Assembly: GCA_016927095.1 (NCBI GenBank)
Contig: JAFGNI010000609.1
Coordinates: forward strand, 1-7,709
Origin: Anaerolineae bacterium
GTDB taxonomy: Bacteria > Chloroflexota > Anaerolineae > B4-G1 > SLSP01
DNA: 7,709 nt
Reading direction: 5' to 3'
Both the position numbers and the translations under genes were made by a program. Positions 1,022 through 7,709 of this stretch are shown piece after piece (position 1 is the first letter of the stretch; each line of letters begins with the position of its first letter). A model generated the notes under the pieces. That model saw only the letters and a list, made by a program, of their open reading frames with translations, did no database searches and was not told the origin of the DNA.

Positions 1022-2095
1022 ATGTCTATGATTGGATTCCAGAGTCTGGAGCCTGGTCTCTATCAGGTGGCGACGCCCGCGGAGATGCAGGTGATCACCG
1101 CCAAGGTGACGCTGCGCGAAGACGACCACTTCTGGACCGAGAGCAAACGAAAGAAGCAGGGCGGCGAGTGGATCAGCATACCCACGAACTGTCACACATC
1201 CACGACCGGCCTGCTCGTGCAGTCTGCTGCGATCGGCGCCCATGTCCATTCCAAGGTCGTCGAACTCGACCGAAACCGCGTACGGGTCGTCGCTCGCGGC
1301 TACTGGCTCCGGCAGGATGGCCTGCTGGAGGTCGTCGAGAAGTCGAAGGAATACGACCTGAACGCGGAGTTGTTCAAGGCCGCGCTGAAGGAGGCCCGTT
1401 CCAAGGGCGCTCCGAGCCAAGAACAGACCACCGCGCTTGTCAAGGTGGCTACCGAGGAGACGGCCCTTGCCCTCGTCAACACGCTGCCCGTGCTCACCAA
1501 GGCGAAGGTCATGGAAGCGCGCATGGAGGTGCAGACGCACCGCGAGGCCCTCTGTCGCACGAAGGCCGAGAACATGTGCCACCGCTACTTCATCGCCCAG
1601 GCGGGAGGCGTGCTGAAGCAAAAGCCTGGGTTCGGCTCGATCACCATTGAGCTGCAGCGCCCGATGCTGGCTAAGAAGCTCGATGGCGCGGCGGTGCAGG
1701 AGGCGACTGAGTCGCTGTTCGGAGGCCCGGCACCTACCACGACACCGGTACAGATACCAGAAGAGCCAGAAGGTGAAGAGCAGCAGATCATCGACGCGGA
1801 GGTCACCGACAAGACCGAGACAGAGGCGGCGGCAGAATCCGGCGAGGACACGGACACTGAGACGGTCGATGGAGAGGACGAGGGCGTTTGGGGAGAGGAG
1901 CCTGACGGTGCAGAGAGTGCCGAAGATGATCCCCCTACCACCTGCCAGGCCGACGGCTGCCAGAATCCACTGAGCCAGAAGGTCATCGACTGGTGCCAGA
2001 GTCACGCCGAGGAGTTCGGCGGCTTGCTGCTCTGCTTTGACTGCCAGCAGAAGATGAAGAAGGGGCAGAAGGCTGGTGCGAAGGCGGGTGCATAA
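1022..2095 (+). CDS. Putative phage recombination / ssDNA-annealing-type protein with C-terminal zinc ribbon
   Basis: Encodes 357 residues. GGAGG (1009-1013), 8 nt before ATG 1022, sets the start; an in-frame TTG at 1007 is not preferred. Residues 1-235 look like one globular domain, with beta-strand-like stretches about 70-110 (HSKVVELDRNRVRVVARGYW) and a Thr-Lys-Ala-Glu-Asn element near 180-184 in a helix. That resembles the conserved Lys/Arg-Ala-x-Asn helix of phage Rad52/RecT-like annealing proteins, though the similarity is from memory. Residues about 246-306 are an acidic Glu/Asp/Thr linker. Residues 308-341 hold C308-x4-C313 and C338-x2-C341, with FGGLLLC before the last pair, as in the zinc ribbons ending some phage recombination proteins. 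Its position at the head of a nuclease/SbcCD operon fits a DNA-recombination role. The exact family is uncertain. The stop overlaps the next ATG (TAATG). Confidence 0.5.
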   Translation: MSMIGFQSLEPGLYQVATPAEMQVITAKVTLREDDHFWTESKRKKQGGEWISIPTNCHTSTTGLLVQSAAIGAHVHSKVVELDRNRVRVVARGYWLRQDGLLEVVEKSKEYDLNAELFKAALKEARSKGAPSQEQTTALVKVATEETALALVNTLPVLTKAKVMEARMEVQTHREALCRTKAENMCHRYFIAQAGGVLKQKPGFGSITIELQRPMLAKKLDGAAVQEATESLFGGPAPTTTPVQIPEEPEGEEQQIIDAEVTDKTETEAAAESGEDTDTETVDGEDEGVWGEEPDGAESAEDDPPTTCQADGCQNPLSQKVIDWCQSHAEEFGGLLLCFDCQQKMKKGQKAGAKAGA

Positions 2096-2778
2096 TGGGT
2101 AGACCATTCGACTGGGCAACTCTCCGCGAGGACTATGAGCGGCTCGGTAGCGCCATGGCTGTGGCGGCCGAGTATGGGTGCGACTACTCCGGCGTAGTCA
2201 AGGCCCTAAAGCGCAAACGCATTCCTATCAGGCCCCGGTACCCGTATAACTGGGACAACCTTGAACGCGATGTAAGGCGCCTCGGAAGTGTGCGCGCTGT
2301 GGCTAGAGCTTACGGCTGCGCCTCATCTAGTGCTGATGCGCAGGCGAGAAAGCGCGGCATATCCATTGTTCCAGCGCTCGAGAAGACCGGCGGCAAGGCC
2401 GGTAGAGGGCGCCAGGCAGAGCTACTGGCGCTGAAGATCCTGCCTGGCGCCGTGGACCTCAACGCAGTTCAGCTTCATTCTCCGTATGACCTCCACTACC
2501 AGGGCAATAGAGTCGATGTGAAGAGTTCTCGACTCATGTGCGGTGACGGTAATCGAGGCTGGCGATTCGGCTTCAATGGGAAGAAGAATCGCGTGGATGC
2601 TGTGCTGTGTCTATGCCTGGATGCGCAGGGCAGTCGTGTCCTGGACTGCTATCTCGTTCCGACGTCTGCGATTCGGGCGGGATCTCTGCGAATCCCACAA
2701 TCTGGCGCGGGGCGACTCGCTGTCTATCGGAGAGACGTACCCAAGGAGGTGGCAAATGCTGATCTGTCATACGAGTGA
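2095..2778 (+). CDS. Twin-HTH PD-(D/E)XK nuclease
   Basis: Encodes 227 residues. Residues 5-45 and 51-91 are a tandem duplication with about 17 of 41 positions identical. The shared core is W...L..D..RLGS..AVA..YGC, which looks like a helix-turn-helix DNA-binding unit. The C-terminal domain has the PD-(D/E)XK layout: GRQAE with E109 in a helix, then P130-Y-D132, then V140-D141-V-K143-S, followed by a beta-rich stretch. All catalytic residues expected for a Mg-dependent endonuclease of this fold are present. It could be a phage Holliday-junction resolvase, a structure-specific nuclease or a free-standing homing-type nuclease; the sequence does not settle this. It starts in the TAATG overlap with a weak SD (AAGGCGGG, 2081-2088), so translation is probably coupled. 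Its 3' end overlaps sbcD by 23 bp. It uses more A/T-ending codons than sbcD/sbcC. Confidence 0.7.
   Translation: MGRPFDWATLREDYERLGSAMAVAAEYGCDYSGVVKALKRKRIPIRPRYPYNWDNLERDVRRLGSVRAVARAYGCASSSADAQARKRGISIVPALEKTGGKAGRGRQAELLALKILPGAVDLNAVQLHSPYDLHYQGNRVDVKSSRLMCGDGNRGWRFGFNGKKNRVDAVLCLCLDAQGSRVLDCYLVPTSAIRAGSLRIPQSGAGRLAVYRRDVPKEVANADLSYE
2743..2749 (+). promoter_or_regulatory. Strong ribosome binding site fixing the sbcD start
   Basis: AAGGAGG lies 6 nt before ATG 2756, inside the end of the preceding nuclease gene. It decides the sbcD start: the frame is open upstream to 2543, but the first Mre11 motif begins only at codon 8 from 2756. Confidence 0.85.
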
Positions 2779-4018
2779 TTGGCACTTAGCCGCGTCTGGC
2801 TCAAAGCGAGCTCCGAGCGGGAGAAACGCGAGGCTCGAAGACCGTTGCCGCTGCGCGCGCTTCGTCGTGGAAGACGCGGTGAAGCGCGGCGCGGACTTGA
2901 TCGTGCACTGCGGCGACGTATTCGACCGCTGGCACGTGACGCCGACCGAGGTGCGGCTGGCGAAGCAGGCCTTCGTGCCGGCACTCGACGCGAAGATCCC
3001 GGTGGTGATCGTCAAGGGCAACCATGACGACGTCCGTTCGCCCACCGAGTTCAACGCGCTCGACCATCTGCGGGAGATGGTGGGCGTGACGGTGGTCGAT
3101 CAGCCCTGCTTGCTAGACGTGTGGGAGGGCAGTCACCGGACGATGGTAACACCTTCGCCGGAGAAACGCCCGGAGGTAGACAGCACGATGGTGCAATTGG
3201 CCTGCCTCCCCTACCCACAGCCCAACCTACTGCTGCGCGACGAGGACACGCGCCAGCTCTCCCCCGGCGAGCGTAACCTGCTGATCCGAGAGAAGATGAT
3301 GGAAGTGGCGCGGGGATTGGCCGCGGACAGGCGGGAGGGAGTGCCGAGGCTACTGCTCGGGCACTTCTCCGTGGACATGGCGGAGGCGGGGCAGCAGAAC
3401 CGCTTGATGGCGTTGGGGGGCGAATTCACGCTGAATGTGCATGAGCTCGCGGCACTCGGATTCGAAGCGGTGTTGCTCGGACACATCCACAAGGGGCAGA
3501 CATTCCCGAAGATGCCCGTCGTGTACAGCGGTTCGCCCGAGGCCTGCTCGTTCGGAGAAGAAGGCGAACCGAAGTATTACCTACTCGTCTCTCCACATGA
3601 GGACGATGAGCACAAAGGCTACTGGAATATCGGCTTTGAGATGGTGGCGACCCCCTACCGTCCACTCGTCACCCTCGACCCTCTCCAGGACTTCACGGAC
3701 GAGGGCGAACTCACGGCCGAAGCGCCGGTGGTCGAGCACGCCATTGTGCGCGTCGAGCTGCCGGCCGGCTCTCCACTGGACCTGAACGCGGTGCGGCGGG
3801 AGGTCGAAGCCTGTGGCGCGTTCGAGGTGCGCGTAACGAAGGCCCGCGCCGAGACGGAACGACGGGTGCGCGAGTCAGACGTGAGCCACGGACAGGCACT
3901 TCCTGAGCAGATCAATGCCTGGCTGGAGTTCCATCCAGACTACCAGCCGCACGCCGACGCGCTGATTGCTGAGGCCGTGAAGTTGGAGGAGGCGGTGGCG
4001 GAAGGGGGTGCAGCATGA
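2756..4018 (+). CDS. sbcD: SbcD/Mre11-type DNA repair nuclease subunit (phage gp47-like)
   Basis: Encodes 420 residues. It is a calcineurin-like metallophosphoesterase with all Mre11/SbcD metal motifs intact: D8-W-H10, G53-D54-V-F-D57, G88-N89-H90-D91, G202-H203, and G242-H243-I-H245, followed by VYSGSPEACSFGE (256-268), the usual family motif after the last histidines. Residues about 1-270 are the nuclease core. Residues about 295-370 resemble the capping domain. The C-terminal 380-420 are helical and may bind the coiled-coil base of SbcC. The Mn-dependent enzyme works with SbcC as an ATP-controlled exo/endonuclease on DNA ends and hairpins; in T4 the equivalent complex gp47/gp46 acts in recombination-dependent replication and host DNA breakdown. 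It overlaps the upstream nuclease by 23 bp and the next gene by 4 bp (ATGA). Confidence 0.93.
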   Translation: MLICHTSDWHLAASGSKRAPSGRNARLEDRCRCARFVVEDAVKRGADLIVHCGDVFDRWHVTPTEVRLAKQAFVPALDAKIPVVIVKGNHDDVRSPTEFNALDHLREMVGVTVVDQPCLLDVWEGSHRTMVTPSPEKRPEVDSTMVQLACLPYPQPNLLLRDEDTRQLSPGERNLLIREKMMEVARGLAADRREGVPRLLLGHFSVDMAEAGQQNRLMALGGEFTLNVHELAALGFEAVLLGHIHKGQTFPKMPVVYSGSPEACSFGEEGEPKYYLLVSPHEDDEHKGYWNIGFEMVATPYRPLVTLDPLQDFTDEGELTAEAPVVEHAIVRVELPAGSPLDLNAVRREVEACGAFEVRVTKARAETERRVRESDVSHGQALPEQINAWLEFHPDYQPHADALIAEAVKLEEAVAEGGAA

Positions 4019-4350
4019 TGTTCCTTTGCCGCCGGAACGGACAAGGGTGTCAACTGGTCGATGATGACCACCCGATCGCCAAGGCCTTCGAGGCCATGAT
4101 GGCTGAGCGCGAGAGGCGCGAGGGAGAACGCATCGATCTGCTATCTCCCGCGCAGCGTAAGTTCGCGGAGGGGTTGACTACCGCCTTACACCGCCGACGG
4201 TACCGCGATGGGCAGATGCCGCCTCACCACGCGTCTCGTCCCAGGCAGGTAGCCATAGAAGCGGTGTACGTGCTCGACTATCTGTGCTCCGAAGAGTGCC
4301 AGGCCGCTATTGAGGCGATGGGCGCGGAGCAGGAAAGGGGTGGCGCATGA
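4015..4350 (+). CDS. Small unknown protein between sbcD and sbcC
   Basis: Encodes 111 residues. It starts in an ATGA overlap with sbcD, with SD-like GAAGGGGG at 4001-4008; a second ATG follows at 4018. It ends in an ATGA overlap with sbcC, so its output is locked to both SbcCD subunits. No family is recognised. Visible features are C5 and C12 near the N-terminus, a highly charged helix at about 22-40 (AMMAERERREGER), two adjacent histidines at 71-72, and C91-x3-C95 in LDYLCSEEC near the C-terminus. The four cysteines could bind a metal, but the spacing matches no zinc-finger type I can name. Its position suggests an SbcCD partner or regulator, which is inference only. It could equally be an unrelated phage insertion. 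Confidence 0.7.
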   Translation: MMFLCRRNGQGCQLVDDDHPIAKAFEAMMAERERREGERIDLLSPAQRKFAEGLTTALHRRRYRDGQMPPHHASRPRQVAIEAVYVLDYLCSEECQAAIEAMGAEQERGGA

Positions 4351-6611
4351 AACCCCTATCCCTCAAGCTCTCAAATTTCCAGAGCCACCGTGACACTGTG
4401 CTTGACCTCTCAAGCATCGACTGTGCGGTGCTGTCTGGCCCTAACGGGGCGGGGAAGAGTTCACTTTTGGACGCCATGCTCTTCGCCCTGTTCGGCGAGA
4501 CGCGCGGCGGGAATCTCGACTCGGTGATTACCCACGGCGAAGAGGTGGCGCGAGTCGAGTTCGAGTTCTCTATGAACGGTAGTCGCTACCTCGTCAGCCG
4601 CCAGCGCTCACGCAAAGGCGCTGGCACGACAACACTGACCTTCCAGTGCGACGGACAATTACTGGACGGGAAGACCGCCACTGAGACGCAGCGGAGAATC
4701 GAGGAAGTCACCGGACTGACAGCCGACCTCCTACGGGCGACGGCGGTGTCGGCGCAGGGAGACGCGGACGCATTCGCCCGGGCCAAGGCTACAGAGCGCA
4801 AAGGCTACCTCGGCAGCATCCTCCAGCTCGAGCACTATGATCGGCTCGCCCAGGAGGCACGCGACCAGGCGAAGGCGGCCCAGGGAGAACGGGACGCGAA
4901 GCAGTCGGCGCTCGAGGCGGCGCAGGCCACGGCCGCGACCATCCCGACTATTCAGGAGCAGTTGACAGCGGCGGCCGGCAACATCACCGGGCTGGAGAAG
5001 GCGCGGGACGAGACGCAGGAGAGCCTCGACGGTTTCACGAGACAGCGCGAGGAGACCTCCAGTGCCCAGGCCGCGGATACCGAACGTCGGAAGGCGCTGG
5101 CGAACCTGGCTGAGCAGATCGGCAAGGCGAAGACGGTGTTCGAGACGGCGGAGAGAAAGGCGAACCACCTCTCCTTCACGGCGGATGGAAAGCCTGCTGC
5201 CGTGACCGGATTGGAAGCAGCCAAGGCCGCCCAGGCCAAAGCCGAGGGGTTCGAGGCGAAGCGACAGGAACGGGAGCGGCTGAAGTCAGAGGGCTTGCTG
5301 CTCAGCGAACGCGTCAAGGCGAGCAGGGCCGCGCACCAGCAGAGCATCAAGGAGCGCGAGACGGAGATCGCCACCGCCAAGCGGGAGCATGAGCGCGAGG
5401 CGGCGACGCTCCGGGAGACGATCGAGGAACTCGAGAAGCGGGAGAAGCTGCTGGAGGGTGTTCCGTGTACGGATACGCCCATGGCCGAGACGTGCCCGCT
5501 GATCGTGGATGCCATGAGTGCCCGGACCCTCCTGCCGACGAAACAGCAAGAGCTGCAGACGCTCGAGCAGCAGACGCCGTGGCAGGACAAGGAACGAAAG
5601 CTCGAGGAGACTCGACTATACGAGCCCTGGTCGGCCGACGAGACGGAGAGCAAGCGACTCAAGGCCGCCTATGACGCCATCGAGTATGACGCGGAGGCGC
5701 ACCAGAAGGCGAAGGCGGAGGCCGCCAAGCTCTCCGATCGCCAGAAGCTGTTGGCCGGAATCGAAGCGGCCGAGCAGCAGTTACCGGAGGCGCAGCAGGC
5801 CGTCACCACCGCACAGAACGAACTCTCCGCACTCGAGCGCCAGCACAAGGAGCTGAGCGAGCAGCTCGGCGACGCGACAGACTGGGCCGCGAGGCTGGCC
5901 GCCATCGAGGAGAGACTGAAGTCGAAGCGTGAGGATCTGGGCCGTATCAGCCGGAGCCTCGACGTAGCACGCCAGCAGCAGGGCGCGCTGACCGAGAGAC
6001 TCGAAGCCGCGCAGCAGGCGGCCGCGCAGGTCGCGGTACTTGAGGCCGACCTCCATGTTCTCGAGCTGCGTCTGCTCCACCTAAAGATGCTGGGCAACCC
6101 CAGGGACGGCGCCTTCTCTCGCGCCGGTATCCCCGCGCTGCTGATCGACCAGGCCATTCCCGAGCTGCAGGACGCGGCAAACGCCGTGCTCGAGACGCTG
6201 AGTGATGGGCGGCTGGCGCTGGAGTTGCGGACGCAGGGCGAGACGCGCAGCGGCTCGACCACGGAGACCCTCGACCTCGTGGTATTCGACGATGCCGGGG
6301 GGCGGCTGTTGGAGAGCTATAGCGGTGGCGAGCAGATGCGAGTGCACCTGGCGCTGCGGGTGGGGCTCTCGAAGCTACTCGCTCACCGCGCCGGCGCCAA
6401 GTGCCAGTTGCTTGTGCTCGATGAGATGGCAGCGCCGCTCGATGTGCGGGGACAGGAGCAGTTCGTCGAGGCGCTGGCTACGATCGCCGAGGAGGAAGAT
6501 CTGACGGTGCTGTGCGTGAGCCACCTTGCCGATCTCAAGGAGGCCTTTCCTGTGCGTATCGAGGTGAGTCGGAACGGGCGAGGATCGTCTATTGAGGTCA
6601 CTCATGCTTGA
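4347..6611 (+). CDS. sbcC: SbcC/Rad50-type SMC-like ATPase (phage gp46-like)
   Basis: Encodes 754 residues, shorter than E. coli SbcC (about 1050) and longer than T4 gp46 (560), so the coiled coils are of medium length. In order: N-terminal ATPase half with Walker A GPNGAGKS (31-38) and a Q-loop-like SAQGDADAF; coiled coil about 165-370, rich in Ala, Glu, Gln and Lys; a hook apex with C374 and C383 in VPC...ETCPL; return coil about 384-570; C-terminal ATPase half with signature S659-G-G-E662, Walker B LVLD692-E693, D-loop APLD, and H-loop H726. All ATPase motifs are intact. It should bind and bridge DNA ends and gate SbcD by ATP-driven closing. The hook cysteines are spaced C-x8-C instead of CxxC. 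SD-like GAAAGGGG precedes ATG 4347 by 6 nt. The stop codon overlaps a promoter for the next gene. Confidence 0.93.
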   Translation: MKPLSLKLSNFQSHRDTVLDLSSIDCAVLSGPNGAGKSSLLDAMLFALFGETRGGNLDSVITHGEEVARVEFEFSMNGSRYLVSRQRSRKGAGTTTLTFQCDGQLLDGKTATETQRRIEEVTGLTADLLRATAVSAQGDADAFARAKATERKGYLGSILQLEHYDRLAQEARDQAKAAQGERDAKQSALEAAQATAATIPTIQEQLTAAAGNITGLEKARDETQESLDGFTRQREETSSAQAADTERRKALANLAEQIGKAKTVFETAERKANHLSFTADGKPAAVTGLEAAKAAQAKAEGFEAKRQERERLKSEGLLLSERVKASRAAHQQSIKERETEIATAKREHEREAATLRETIEELEKREKLLEGVPCTDTPMAETCPLIVDAMSARTLLPTKQQELQTLEQQTPWQDKERKLEETRLYEPWSADETESKRLKAAYDAIEYDAEAHQKAKAEAAKLSDRQKLLAGIEAAEQQLPEAQQAVTTAQNELSALERQHKELSEQLGDATDWAARLAAIEERLKSKREDLGRISRSLDVARQQQGALTERLEAAQQAAAQVAVLEADLHVLELRLLHLKMLGNPRDGAFSRAGIPALLIDQAIPELQDAANAVLETLSDGRLALELRTQGETRSGSTTETLDLVVFDDAGGRLLESYSGGEQMRVHLALRVGLSKLLAHRAGAKCQLLVLDEMAAPLDVRGQEQFVEALATIAEEEDLTVLCVSHLADLKEAFPVRIEVSRNGRGSSIEVTHA

Positions 6612-6636
6612 CTTGGATCCCGGAATCTGGTATCCT
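6608..6636 (+). promoter_or_regulatory. Sigma70-type promoter for the HNH gene
   Basis: The -35 is TTGACT (6608-6613; five of six match TTGACA). A 17-nt spacer follows, then -10 TATCCT (6631-6636; four of six), preceded by TG at 6628-6629, which makes an extended -10. The -35 contains the sbcC stop codon. The expected start site, about 7 nt after the -10, is near 6643, the first paired base of the structured leader downstream. It is the best promoter-like sequence I see in the window and would uncouple the HNH gene from the SbcCD operon. Confidence 0.7.
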
Positions 6637-6641
6637 ACGGG

Positions 6642-6747
6642 TGCTGAAGGTAGTGGTATGAGAGGCGCTTTCTTCGTGGCCCACAGTGCGCGGCCCCGGA
6701 CCTCCGCTACCTTCAGCAAGTCAGCGGCTCTCGGTTCGGGGCCGCGC
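6642..6747 (+). ncRNA. Structured 5' leader: interleaved 15-bp stems, predicted pseudoknot
   Basis: Arm A, TGCTGAAGGTAGTGG (6642-6656), pairs with A', CCGCTACCTTCAGCA (6704-6718): 15 pairs, one G-U. Arm B, GCGCGGCCCCGGACC (6688-6702), pairs with B', GGTTCGGGGCCGCGC (6733-6747): 15 pairs, one G-U. The order A-B-A'-B' with no shared bases is an H-type pseudoknot: loops of 31 nt (6657-6687), 1 nt (6703) and 14 nt (6719-6732), so the helices could stack end to end. B' can instead form a local hairpin, 6724-6731 with 6738-6745. The structure begins at the predicted transcription start and ends 5 nt before the HNH SD (6753-6757), which suggests control of translation or RNA stability. No known riboswitch or ribozyme family is recognised. 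The pairing is seen directly; the fold and function are inferred. Confidence 0.65.
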
Positions 6748-6762
6748 TCATTGGAGGGCATG

Positions 6763-7359
6763 ATGGCATTGACGCCAGATGAAAAGAGGCGTCGCGACGC
6801 GGAGAAGCGCAGGCGTTGGTACTACCGACACCGCGAGGAACATCTTGCTAAGTTGCGCGCGAAGACTGCCGCTGGTCCGAAGGCGCAAGAGCGCAATCGA
6901 CGCAAGCGACAAAGAGATCAGATCAAGGCATGGCGCGACGAAGCATTCTCTCGCGATGGCTATCGCTGCGTAGACTGCGGGAAATCAGAAGGTCTGCTTC
7001 TACACCACCTGGACGGTCGCAGCAAGGACAGTACCATCCGCACTGAGGGGACAGTCAATAACCGACCAGAGAATCTCGTTACCCTTTGTTTTCGGTGTCA
7101 CACTCTGCGGCACGAGCACGATCCGACGCTCCCCTTAGATGAACGATTGAGGCGGAAGCGCCGCTCAATTGCCGAGCGCACTGAAGAAGAGGCGCGGGCG
7201 ATTGTCCGCAAGGCATCCGAGACAATGGGGTCAGATGGCCTCTCTGCCAGATCGCGCGCAGCGTGGGCAAATCTTACACCCGAACAACGGACAAGGCGAA
7301 TCCGTAACGCTGCTGAGGCTCGTCAGCGCGTACGCGATGCCAAGAAGGAGAGCCATTGA
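6763..7359 (+). CDS. HNH endonuclease, homing-type
   Basis: Encodes 198 residues from ATG 6763; GGAGG (6753-6757) is 5 nt away. An ATG directly before it (6760) is too close to the SD. The frame is also open upstream, with ATG 6604 behind GAGG (6594-6597), but that would translate the structured leader. Residues 1-60 are a basic Arg/Lys-rich helical DNA-binding part. The HNH domain spans about 65-118: C69-x2-C72, H81-H82-L-D-G, N100, N104-L-V-T-L-C109-x2-C112-H113, giving a complete beta-beta-alpha-metal fold with a structural zinc. The C-terminal tail (about 160-198, AAWANLTPEQR then basic residues) resembles the NUMOD-like DNA-binding ends of phage homing nucleases. It has its own promoter and leader, and more A/T-ending codons than sbcC, which suggests an acquired selfish gene. 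A packaging-type HNH is less likely, since no terminase is nearby. Confidence 0.85.
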   Translation: MALTPDEKRRRDAEKRRRWYYRHREEHLAKLRAKTAAGPKAQERNRRKRQRDQIKAWRDEAFSRDGYRCVDCGKSEGLLLHHLDGRSKDSTIRTEGTVNNRPENLVTLCFRCHTLRHEHDPTLPLDERLRRKRRSIAERTEEEARAIVRKASETMGSDGLSARSRAAWANLTPEQRTRRIRNAAEARQRVRDAKKESH

Positions 7360-7709
7360 TGCCATACCTGACCCACGGACTCAGACACGACACCGACGAC
7401 CTGTTCGCCAAGCTGCTCGATCCGAGCAATGAGAAGTGGGGGATGACGCCGTGCGTGGTGCTGCGGATGCTCTCCTGGCCCGAGGAGGAGATCAACGCTG
7501 TCCGCTCGGCGGATGAGCTGCTGACATTCCCGGACGGCTGCCAGGTCATCTGCGGGTGGCCGGGCGCGCGGCGGCAGGACGTATTCGAGTTCACCGTTGG
7601 GCAGTTCCGGGCTTACGTTCATGCCCGAGATCATAGAGGAGGCAATACGCCAATGACGTGTAGTGACGATCCGAAGCCGGACTCAGAAACCGGCGCGACG
7701 GAAGAAACC
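7359..7709 (+). CDS. Unknown protein, 3' end outside window
   Basis: 117 codons are visible with no stop before the right edge. ATG 7359 overlaps the HNH stop by one base (TGATG), and AAGGAG (7345-7350) is 8 nt upstream, so the start is well supported. Residues about 10-85 look globular: acidic helices (HDTDDLFAKLL, PEEEINAVRSADELL) followed by beta-like stretches (CQVICGWPG, VFEFTVGQF). From about 92 onward it is polar and probably disordered. An in-frame ATG at 7653 follows GAGGAGG (7636-7642) by 10 nt, so a shorter product could also be made. No family is recognised with confidence. G/C-ending codons here resemble sbcC, not the HNH gene, so it is probably part of the original backbone. Confidence 0.75.
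   Translation, partial: MPYLTHGLRHDTDDLFAKLLDPSNEKWGMTPCVVLRMLSWPEEEINAVRSADELLTFPDGCQVICGWPGARRQDVFEFTVGQFRAYVHARDHRGGNTPMTCSDDPKPDSETGATEET

Follow-up and report, generated by a model that had tools for sequence, protein, structure and literature searches.

Between an SbcC-like gene and the gene of an HNH endonuclease, the 7,709-nucleotide stretch analysed here (contig JAFGNI010000609.1 of assembly GCA_016927095.1, ‘the window’) holds a short segment, ~6643–6759, in which two long complements interleave, and the question raised by this locus is what such a segment does. The window is part of an uncultured phage-like contig and carries a run of plus-strand genes whose starts overlap or abut. 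We propose, with about even confidence, that the segment is a cis-acting pseudoknotted 5′ leader that limits translation of a free-standing HNH endonuclease in an uncultured phage. That the gene downstream encodes an HNH nuclease, as a sequence-only reading of this DNA had claimed, is supported by matches of its 198-amino-acid product to PHROG HNH families (down to 4.4e-12) and to the Pfam HNH domain (4.1e-4; 20.9 bits, slightly below the cut-off of 21.4).

The same reading had described two disjoint, interleaved 15-bp complements, and both are present at 6642–6747. Stems A and B (Table 1) each comprise 14 Watson–Crick pairs and one G-U pair, have no base in common, and follow one another in the order A-B-A′-B′ within a span of 106 nucleotides. 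When plus-strand stems spanning at most 200 nucleotides were ranked across the window, stem B came first and stem A third. In 1000 dinucleotide shuffles of 6600–6770, the best stem reached at most 14.6 (stem B scores 14.0) and the second-best at most 10.0 (stem A scores 13.0). Interleaved pairs were scored by their weaker stem, which gives 13.0 for the leader and a maximum of 10.0 in 15,000 dinucleotide shuffles of 6604–6762. The earlier claim of improbability by chance is upheld, as the pair was equalled in none of these 15,000 shuffles and at none of 89 phage loci (959,234 strand-bases), where 192 interleaved clusters had a weaker stem scoring 8.5 or more, 12 of them 10 or more, one 11 or more and none 11.5 or more. 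When 10 sources, the window among them, were scanned (488,940 strand-bases), the next-best pair scored 11.2. Scores at the 89 loci fall about threefold per 0.5, and extrapolation of this tail suggests that an equal of the A/B pair is to be expected about once per ~80 Mb of strand sequence, such that a very large scan might meet one by chance. The A/B pair is a real and rare feature of the sequence.

We favour a role for this feature in RNA because of its strand and its placement. The G-U pairs of both stems are wobbles in plus-strand RNA only (the minus strand would have A-C), and of the two strands the plus strand folds better against its shuffles: its z is −2.65, with 3 of 200 shuffles doing as well, compared with −1.54 and 14 of 200 for the minus strand. 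Moreover, the complements lie exactly between a promoter-like site and the Shine–Dalgarno (SD) sequence, in the order promoter-like site, structure, SD, HNH start. These three observations stand against the idea that the complements have no RNA function and arose by chance, or serve at the DNA level as paired protein-binding sites or as debris of inverted duplications. That idea draws on the lack of any homologue showing conservation, and on the extrapolated expectation of about one equal pair per 80 Mb for a finding picked from a scan of unknown size; we consider it unlikely.

The promoter-like site combines TTGACT and TATCCT at a spacing of 17 with a TG before the −10 hexamer, and lies 5 nucleotides from arm A. 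The sequence-only reading had placed a near-consensus extended −10 promoter here; the placement stands, and the strength of the motif is weighed below. No other plus-strand promoter-like site was found in the window by search with the sigma70 consensus. A pairing of 6608–6615 with 6717–6724 was dropped, since its 5′ arm begins in the −35 box and is thus outside the expected transcript. On the minus strand, a promoter-like TTGACA-17-TACAGT at 973–1001 is directed away from the operon.

How might the segment fold? As duplexes, A, B and extended B have energies of −25.0, −34.8 and −44.8 kcal/mol, respectively. Among nested folds the best (−62.9 kcal/mol) contains B:B′, and one with A:A′ forced reaches −57.8. 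With B:B′ forced and both A arms left free the energy is −49.9, which together with the A duplex comes to −74.9 kcal/mol before any pseudoknot penalty. On this rough reckoning, the knotted form would be favoured over the nested fold unless the penalty exceeds ~12 kcal/mol. The pseudoknot loops would measure 31, 1 and 14 nucleotides, and distances do not forbid coexistence of the helices in a permissive test that accepted even a 2-nucleotide third loop. In the minimum-energy fold, helix B continues outward through 6684–6687/6750–6753 and then 6679–6682/6756–6759, and the earlier claim of a structure stopping short of the SD needs amending: within the SD GGAGGG (6753–6758), positions 6753, 6756 and 6757 are predicted to be paired and 6754–6755 unpaired.

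The arms of regulatory switches usually share a strand. Here the arms of A and B are disjoint, so that simultaneous pairing is the simplest reading and a sequential switch its main rival. In such a switch, A:A′ would form first and leave the SD more open, after which B:B′ would displace A:A′ and close the SD, the stems being mutually exclusive by length and timing or a ligand deciding between them. Prefix folding without pseudoknots is consistent with this, as complete A:A′ appears from 6720 and is replaced by B:B′ from 6752, and the energies of the two nested states are close. With A:A′ forced, the probability of being unpaired is 0.87–0.90 at 6753–6755 and 0.17–0.24 at 6756–6758, as against 0.01 at 6753 and 0.00 at 6756–6757 in the free fold. 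However, a nested model cannot hold both stems, and the apparent displacement may merely reflect that limitation; given also the disjoint arms and the distances that permit both stems, we think a switch unlikely.

A second rival concerns the reading frame. The HNH frame is open from an ATG at 6604. This ATG has an SD-like GAGGT upstream, overlaps the stop of SbcC in the manner of other operon starts, and is the start used in a protein database entry (251 amino acids). The HNH protein might thus begin at 6604 with a 52-residue extension, any RNA structure being secondary or confined to transcripts that start downstream of 6604. Codon scores bear on this in both directions. The leader scores −0.133 per codon in the HNH frame, the best of the three plus frames (the others −0.251 and −0.208) and within the −0.02 to −0.14 spanned by windows taken from the HNH gene, yet one minus-strand frame is equally good (−0.206, −0.124 and −0.273 for the three minus frames). 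The mean is 0.19 for known genes (standard deviation 0.13, minimum −0.15) and −0.33 for their off-frames (standard deviation 0.11, maximum −0.08). The leader's G+C by codon position (0.57/0.64/0.64) is not gene-like, genes having a second-position G+C of 0.42–0.52; a 52-codon open stretch is not rare at this composition (we estimate ~1/5), and coding would leave the two 15-bp complements unexplained. We regard translation of the stretch as the essential fact about it to be distinctly unlikely. By inference, the gene might be expressed in two ways, with read-through transcripts containing the 6604 start and local-promoter transcripts lacking it.

If, as we propose, the segment is the 5′ untranslated leader of the HNH gene, transcripts from the promoter at 6608–6636 would start at arm A, which would pair with A′ once A′ is made; B′ would then pair with B across A:A′ to give an H-type pseudoknot in which both helices are long. 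Helix B, through its outer extension, would capture some of the SD, and the loops may be joined by a third helix. HNH translation would then be low or delayed, as would that of the next gene through the overlapping stop and start codons, and the 5′ end of the transcript would be kept in duplex.

Several controls are described as restraining phage homing endonucleases, leader RNA structure among them (PMC2988022). Structures covering the ribosome-binding site (RBS) are reported for I-TevI, I-TevII, I-TevIII, segB and the free-standing HNH gene mobE of phage Aeh1, and a late promoter is so positioned that late I-TevI transcripts lack the inhibitory structure (PMC2988022, PMC3014915). The present locus resembles these T4-type leaders, as described there, in its phage endonuclease gene (mobE also being a free-standing HNH gene), its nearby promoter-like site and a predicted stable structure at the RBS. 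Such leaders precede GIY-YIG or HNH endonuclease genes, and PHROG and Pfam place an HNH gene, for a putative homing endonuclease, here as well. It differs from the hairpins of those leaders in having two interleaved 15-bp stems which are predicted to cover the SD in part (6753 and 6756–6757 paired, 6754–6755 free), and in having its promoter-like site before the whole structure; escape of the I-TevI type is consequently not evident, with 6608–6636, the plus-strand site found with the sigma70 consensus, upstream of arm A. In Aeromonas phage 25, seg43(25) has a very stable predicted hairpin just upstream of an uncovered RBS, and a 2010 review gives its regulation as undetermined (PMC2988022). 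The two are alike in a very stable predicted structure directly upstream of a homing endonuclease RBS, but seg43(25) is described there as a hairpin that does not cover the RBS, and not as a pseudoknot.

In gene 32 of phages T4, T2 and RB69, the start codon is 67 nucleotides downstream of a leader pseudoknot, which serves to nucleate the binding of gp32 across an A+U-rich stretch that covers the RBS (PMC3014915). Two interleaved helices are likewise present here as sequence complementarity, and the predicted H-type topology in a phage mRNA leader is shared. Unlike the gene 32 leader, the present one is predicted to engage the SD directly through helix B, and it precedes a gene for an HNH protein rather than for a single-stranded DNA binding protein. 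By analogy, we suggest that the leader functions most like the T4-type endonuclease leaders, with a gene-32-like topology. A 2010 review counts one viral pseudoknot known in translational autoregulation (PMC3014915), and searches of the open-access full-text literature found no pseudoknot in an endonuclease leader, a negative that does not prove that none has been published. If our reading is correct, phage homing endonucleases would be restrained by a second leader architecture, a long pseudoknot borne by each transcript. The leader also offers a compact test object for the co-transcriptional folding of interleaved long helices.

Structured RNAs are known upstream of HNH-domain genes in another setting, that of HEARO, the omega RNA of IscB. 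This system differs from the present one: Rfam yielded no HEARO match up to E 5 (6560–6800) or E 1 (6400–7709), and within the protein HNH was the only Pfam domain at E 1e-3, with no RuvC parts of the kind found in IscB. The earlier reading knew of no family that a large pseudoknot of this kind would match, and no credible Rfam match to the leader was found. Matches that fell short of the gathering score were put down to chance (ilvB-OMG and two microRNA families in 6560–6800, a viroid motif at 7500–7580 and HOTTIP_3 at 146–380). No tRNA or transfer-messenger RNA was found. A group I intron carrying an HNH open reading frame (ORF) is not indicated by the tests run, as Rfam searches gave no intron-model match and SbcC matches that of phage locus L003 over residues 1–751 of 754. 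The segment might still yield an RNA that acts independently of the HNH mRNA, such as a small stable RNA or one that the nuclease binds. It has a promoter-like site of its own with the structure at its start, but no terminator-like site was found after the structure, no HEARO or other Rfam family reached its gathering score and the protein offers no further Pfam domain, all of which make a separate RNA very unlikely.

The two loops may be linked by a further helix, C, in which 9 of 10 positions pair and whose 3′ arm directly abuts B′. Against shuffles of both loops it has P values of 0.06 (dinucleotide), 0.03 (mononucleotide) and 0.03 (duplex energy), and we treat it as weak and tentative, suggestive only. 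If real, it would give a three-helix pseudoknot, A-C-B-A′-C′-B′, whose ideal A-form helices can be placed without clash and with short linkers satisfied in a permissive test. A knot of this kind, each helix crossing the other two, might be bound by the HNH nuclease to stop its own translation, a knotted RNA in the place of the DNA operator described for I-TevI; we consider this highly improbable.

Several observations weigh against a pseudoknotted regulatory leader. The fold z-score is moderate and the predicted occlusion of the SD partial. The promoter motif is not significant alone, as the window has two such sites where 50 shuffles lead one to expect 0.9 (standard deviation 1.1). Stems of 14–15 bp are long for an H-type pseudoknot, and the prefix model, which cannot show both stems together, cannot separate a pseudoknot from a switch. 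Read-through ribosomes initiating at 6604 could unwind the structure. Finally, the feature rests on one sequence, with no homologous leader in searches of phages, plasmids, viral contigs and genome contigs; the best interleaved pair across 91 HNH loci scores 10.8; and, of the relatives that show what follows SbcC, the nearest is L003, where the following gene can start on the SbcC stop, leaving no room for a leader.

The searches for relatives of the leader were as follows. By DNA similarity, there were no homologues in phages (881 bases, E 0.01; 181 bases, E 10) or plasmids (181 bases, E 1). The two nearest records, queried with 281 bases, gave only matches to the SbcC end (in phage G002) and one 19-base match (E 0.08), and the best match of the leader to all loci then fetched was of 20 bases (E 0.24). 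An exact three-piece pattern had no match in viral contigs. An exact stem-A pattern matched two genome contigs (L111 and L112); both were dropped as single hairpins without a comparable interleaved partner, that of L111 sitting within an ORF of another kind.

The HNH protein is similarly isolated. Compared with 5.8 billion proteins it found only itself at E 1e-3, among 428 candidates sharing short words. Phage records gave 9 matches, none with 80% coverage, a separate locus search gave 2 loci, and 202 distant proteins were recovered with a profile built from six HNH sequences. The sample of 91 HNH loci (80 kept of 141 confirmed, plus 11 others, with some contigs present two or three times) contains no comparable pair, the best being at ~907–1116 of L087 on the strand of an HNH match at 1501; the leader is therefore not general to such HNH genes.

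For SbcC, one search returned one locus (L003), another 3 loci, and 1206 phage records matched, all at <60% identity. Searches with SbcD and with the gene downstream of HNH found no relatives, while for the first operon gene one search returned phage G001 alone and another nothing. The nearest phages are G001 (loci L009 and L110), with 67% identity in SbcC over residues 1–243, 61% in the first operon gene and a record that ends inside SbcC, and G002 (L003), with 45% over the length of SbcC. The L003 gene after SbcC has no similarity to the HNH protein. HNH genes occur elsewhere in both phages, preceding SbcD in G001 but SbcC in G002, shifts of position that fit movable genes, as expected. The gene after HNH has a relative in G002 (L003 ~3157–3450; 76.8% DNA identity over 56 bp, the proteins being similar by eye), flanked there by SbcD and by the HNH gene in front of SbcC, and gene order around the HNH genes thus differs between relatives.

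Table 1. Features of the window, by position within each group.
Feature	Positions	Strand	Basis or remark
Promoter-like site, TTGACT-17-TATCCT, extended −10	6608..6636	+	9/12 consensus matches; not significant alone
Arm A (5′ arm, stem A)	6642..6656	+	complementarity, shuffles; at expected transcript start
Arm C, tentative, loop between A and B	6660..6669	+	9/10 pairs with 6723–6732; P 0.03–0.06
Outer extension of helix B, 5′ side (6679–6682 and 6684–6687)	6679..6687	+	minimum-energy fold
Arm B (5′ arm, stem B)	6688..6702	+	complementarity, shuffles
Arm A′ (3′ arm, stem A)	6704..6718	+	complementarity, shuffles
Arm C′, tentative, abutting B′	6723..6732	+	loop-shuffle test
Arm B′ (3′ arm, stem B)	6733..6747	+	complementarity, shuffles
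Outer extension of helix B, 3′ side, overlapping SD GGAGGG 6753–6758	6750..6759	+	minimum-energy fold
In-frame open stretch from ATG 6604, possible 52-residue N-terminal extension of HNH protein	6604..6759	+	database entry of 251 amino acids
357-residue gene	1022–2095	+	
Gene	2095–2778	+	
SbcD-like gene	2756–4018	+	
Small gene	4015–4350	+	
SbcC-like gene	4347–6611	+	
HNH endonuclease gene (ATG 6760 or 6763)	6763..7359	+	PHROG, Pfam; stop 7357–7359 overlaps next ATG 7359
Further gene	from 7359	+	

Elsewhere in the window, a perfect 12-bp inverted repeat (2408–2451) lies inside the gene at 2095–2778, and a small ORF at 428–649 has one hydrophobic stretch and, judged by eye, perhaps encodes a single-pass membrane protein. 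The region 268–337 resembles a degenerate tRNA by eye, although ARAGORN makes no call; phage G001 has a tRNA-Met at 8532–8606 of L110. The non-coding stretch 338–408 is 79% identical to G001 over 73 bp, the sole extragenic match between the window and G001 in that search. Here a helix, 216–226/338–348, has a counterpart in L110 (9186–9196/9245–9255) with a two-sided change from T-A to C-G, the correspondence of the arms being drawn by eye as MAFFT left the 5′ arms unaligned. The helix is followed by a G+C-rich hairpin (357–403 in the window; the region noted in L110 is 9186–9316), and the two together may form a structured element conserved as the operon's leader or terminator.

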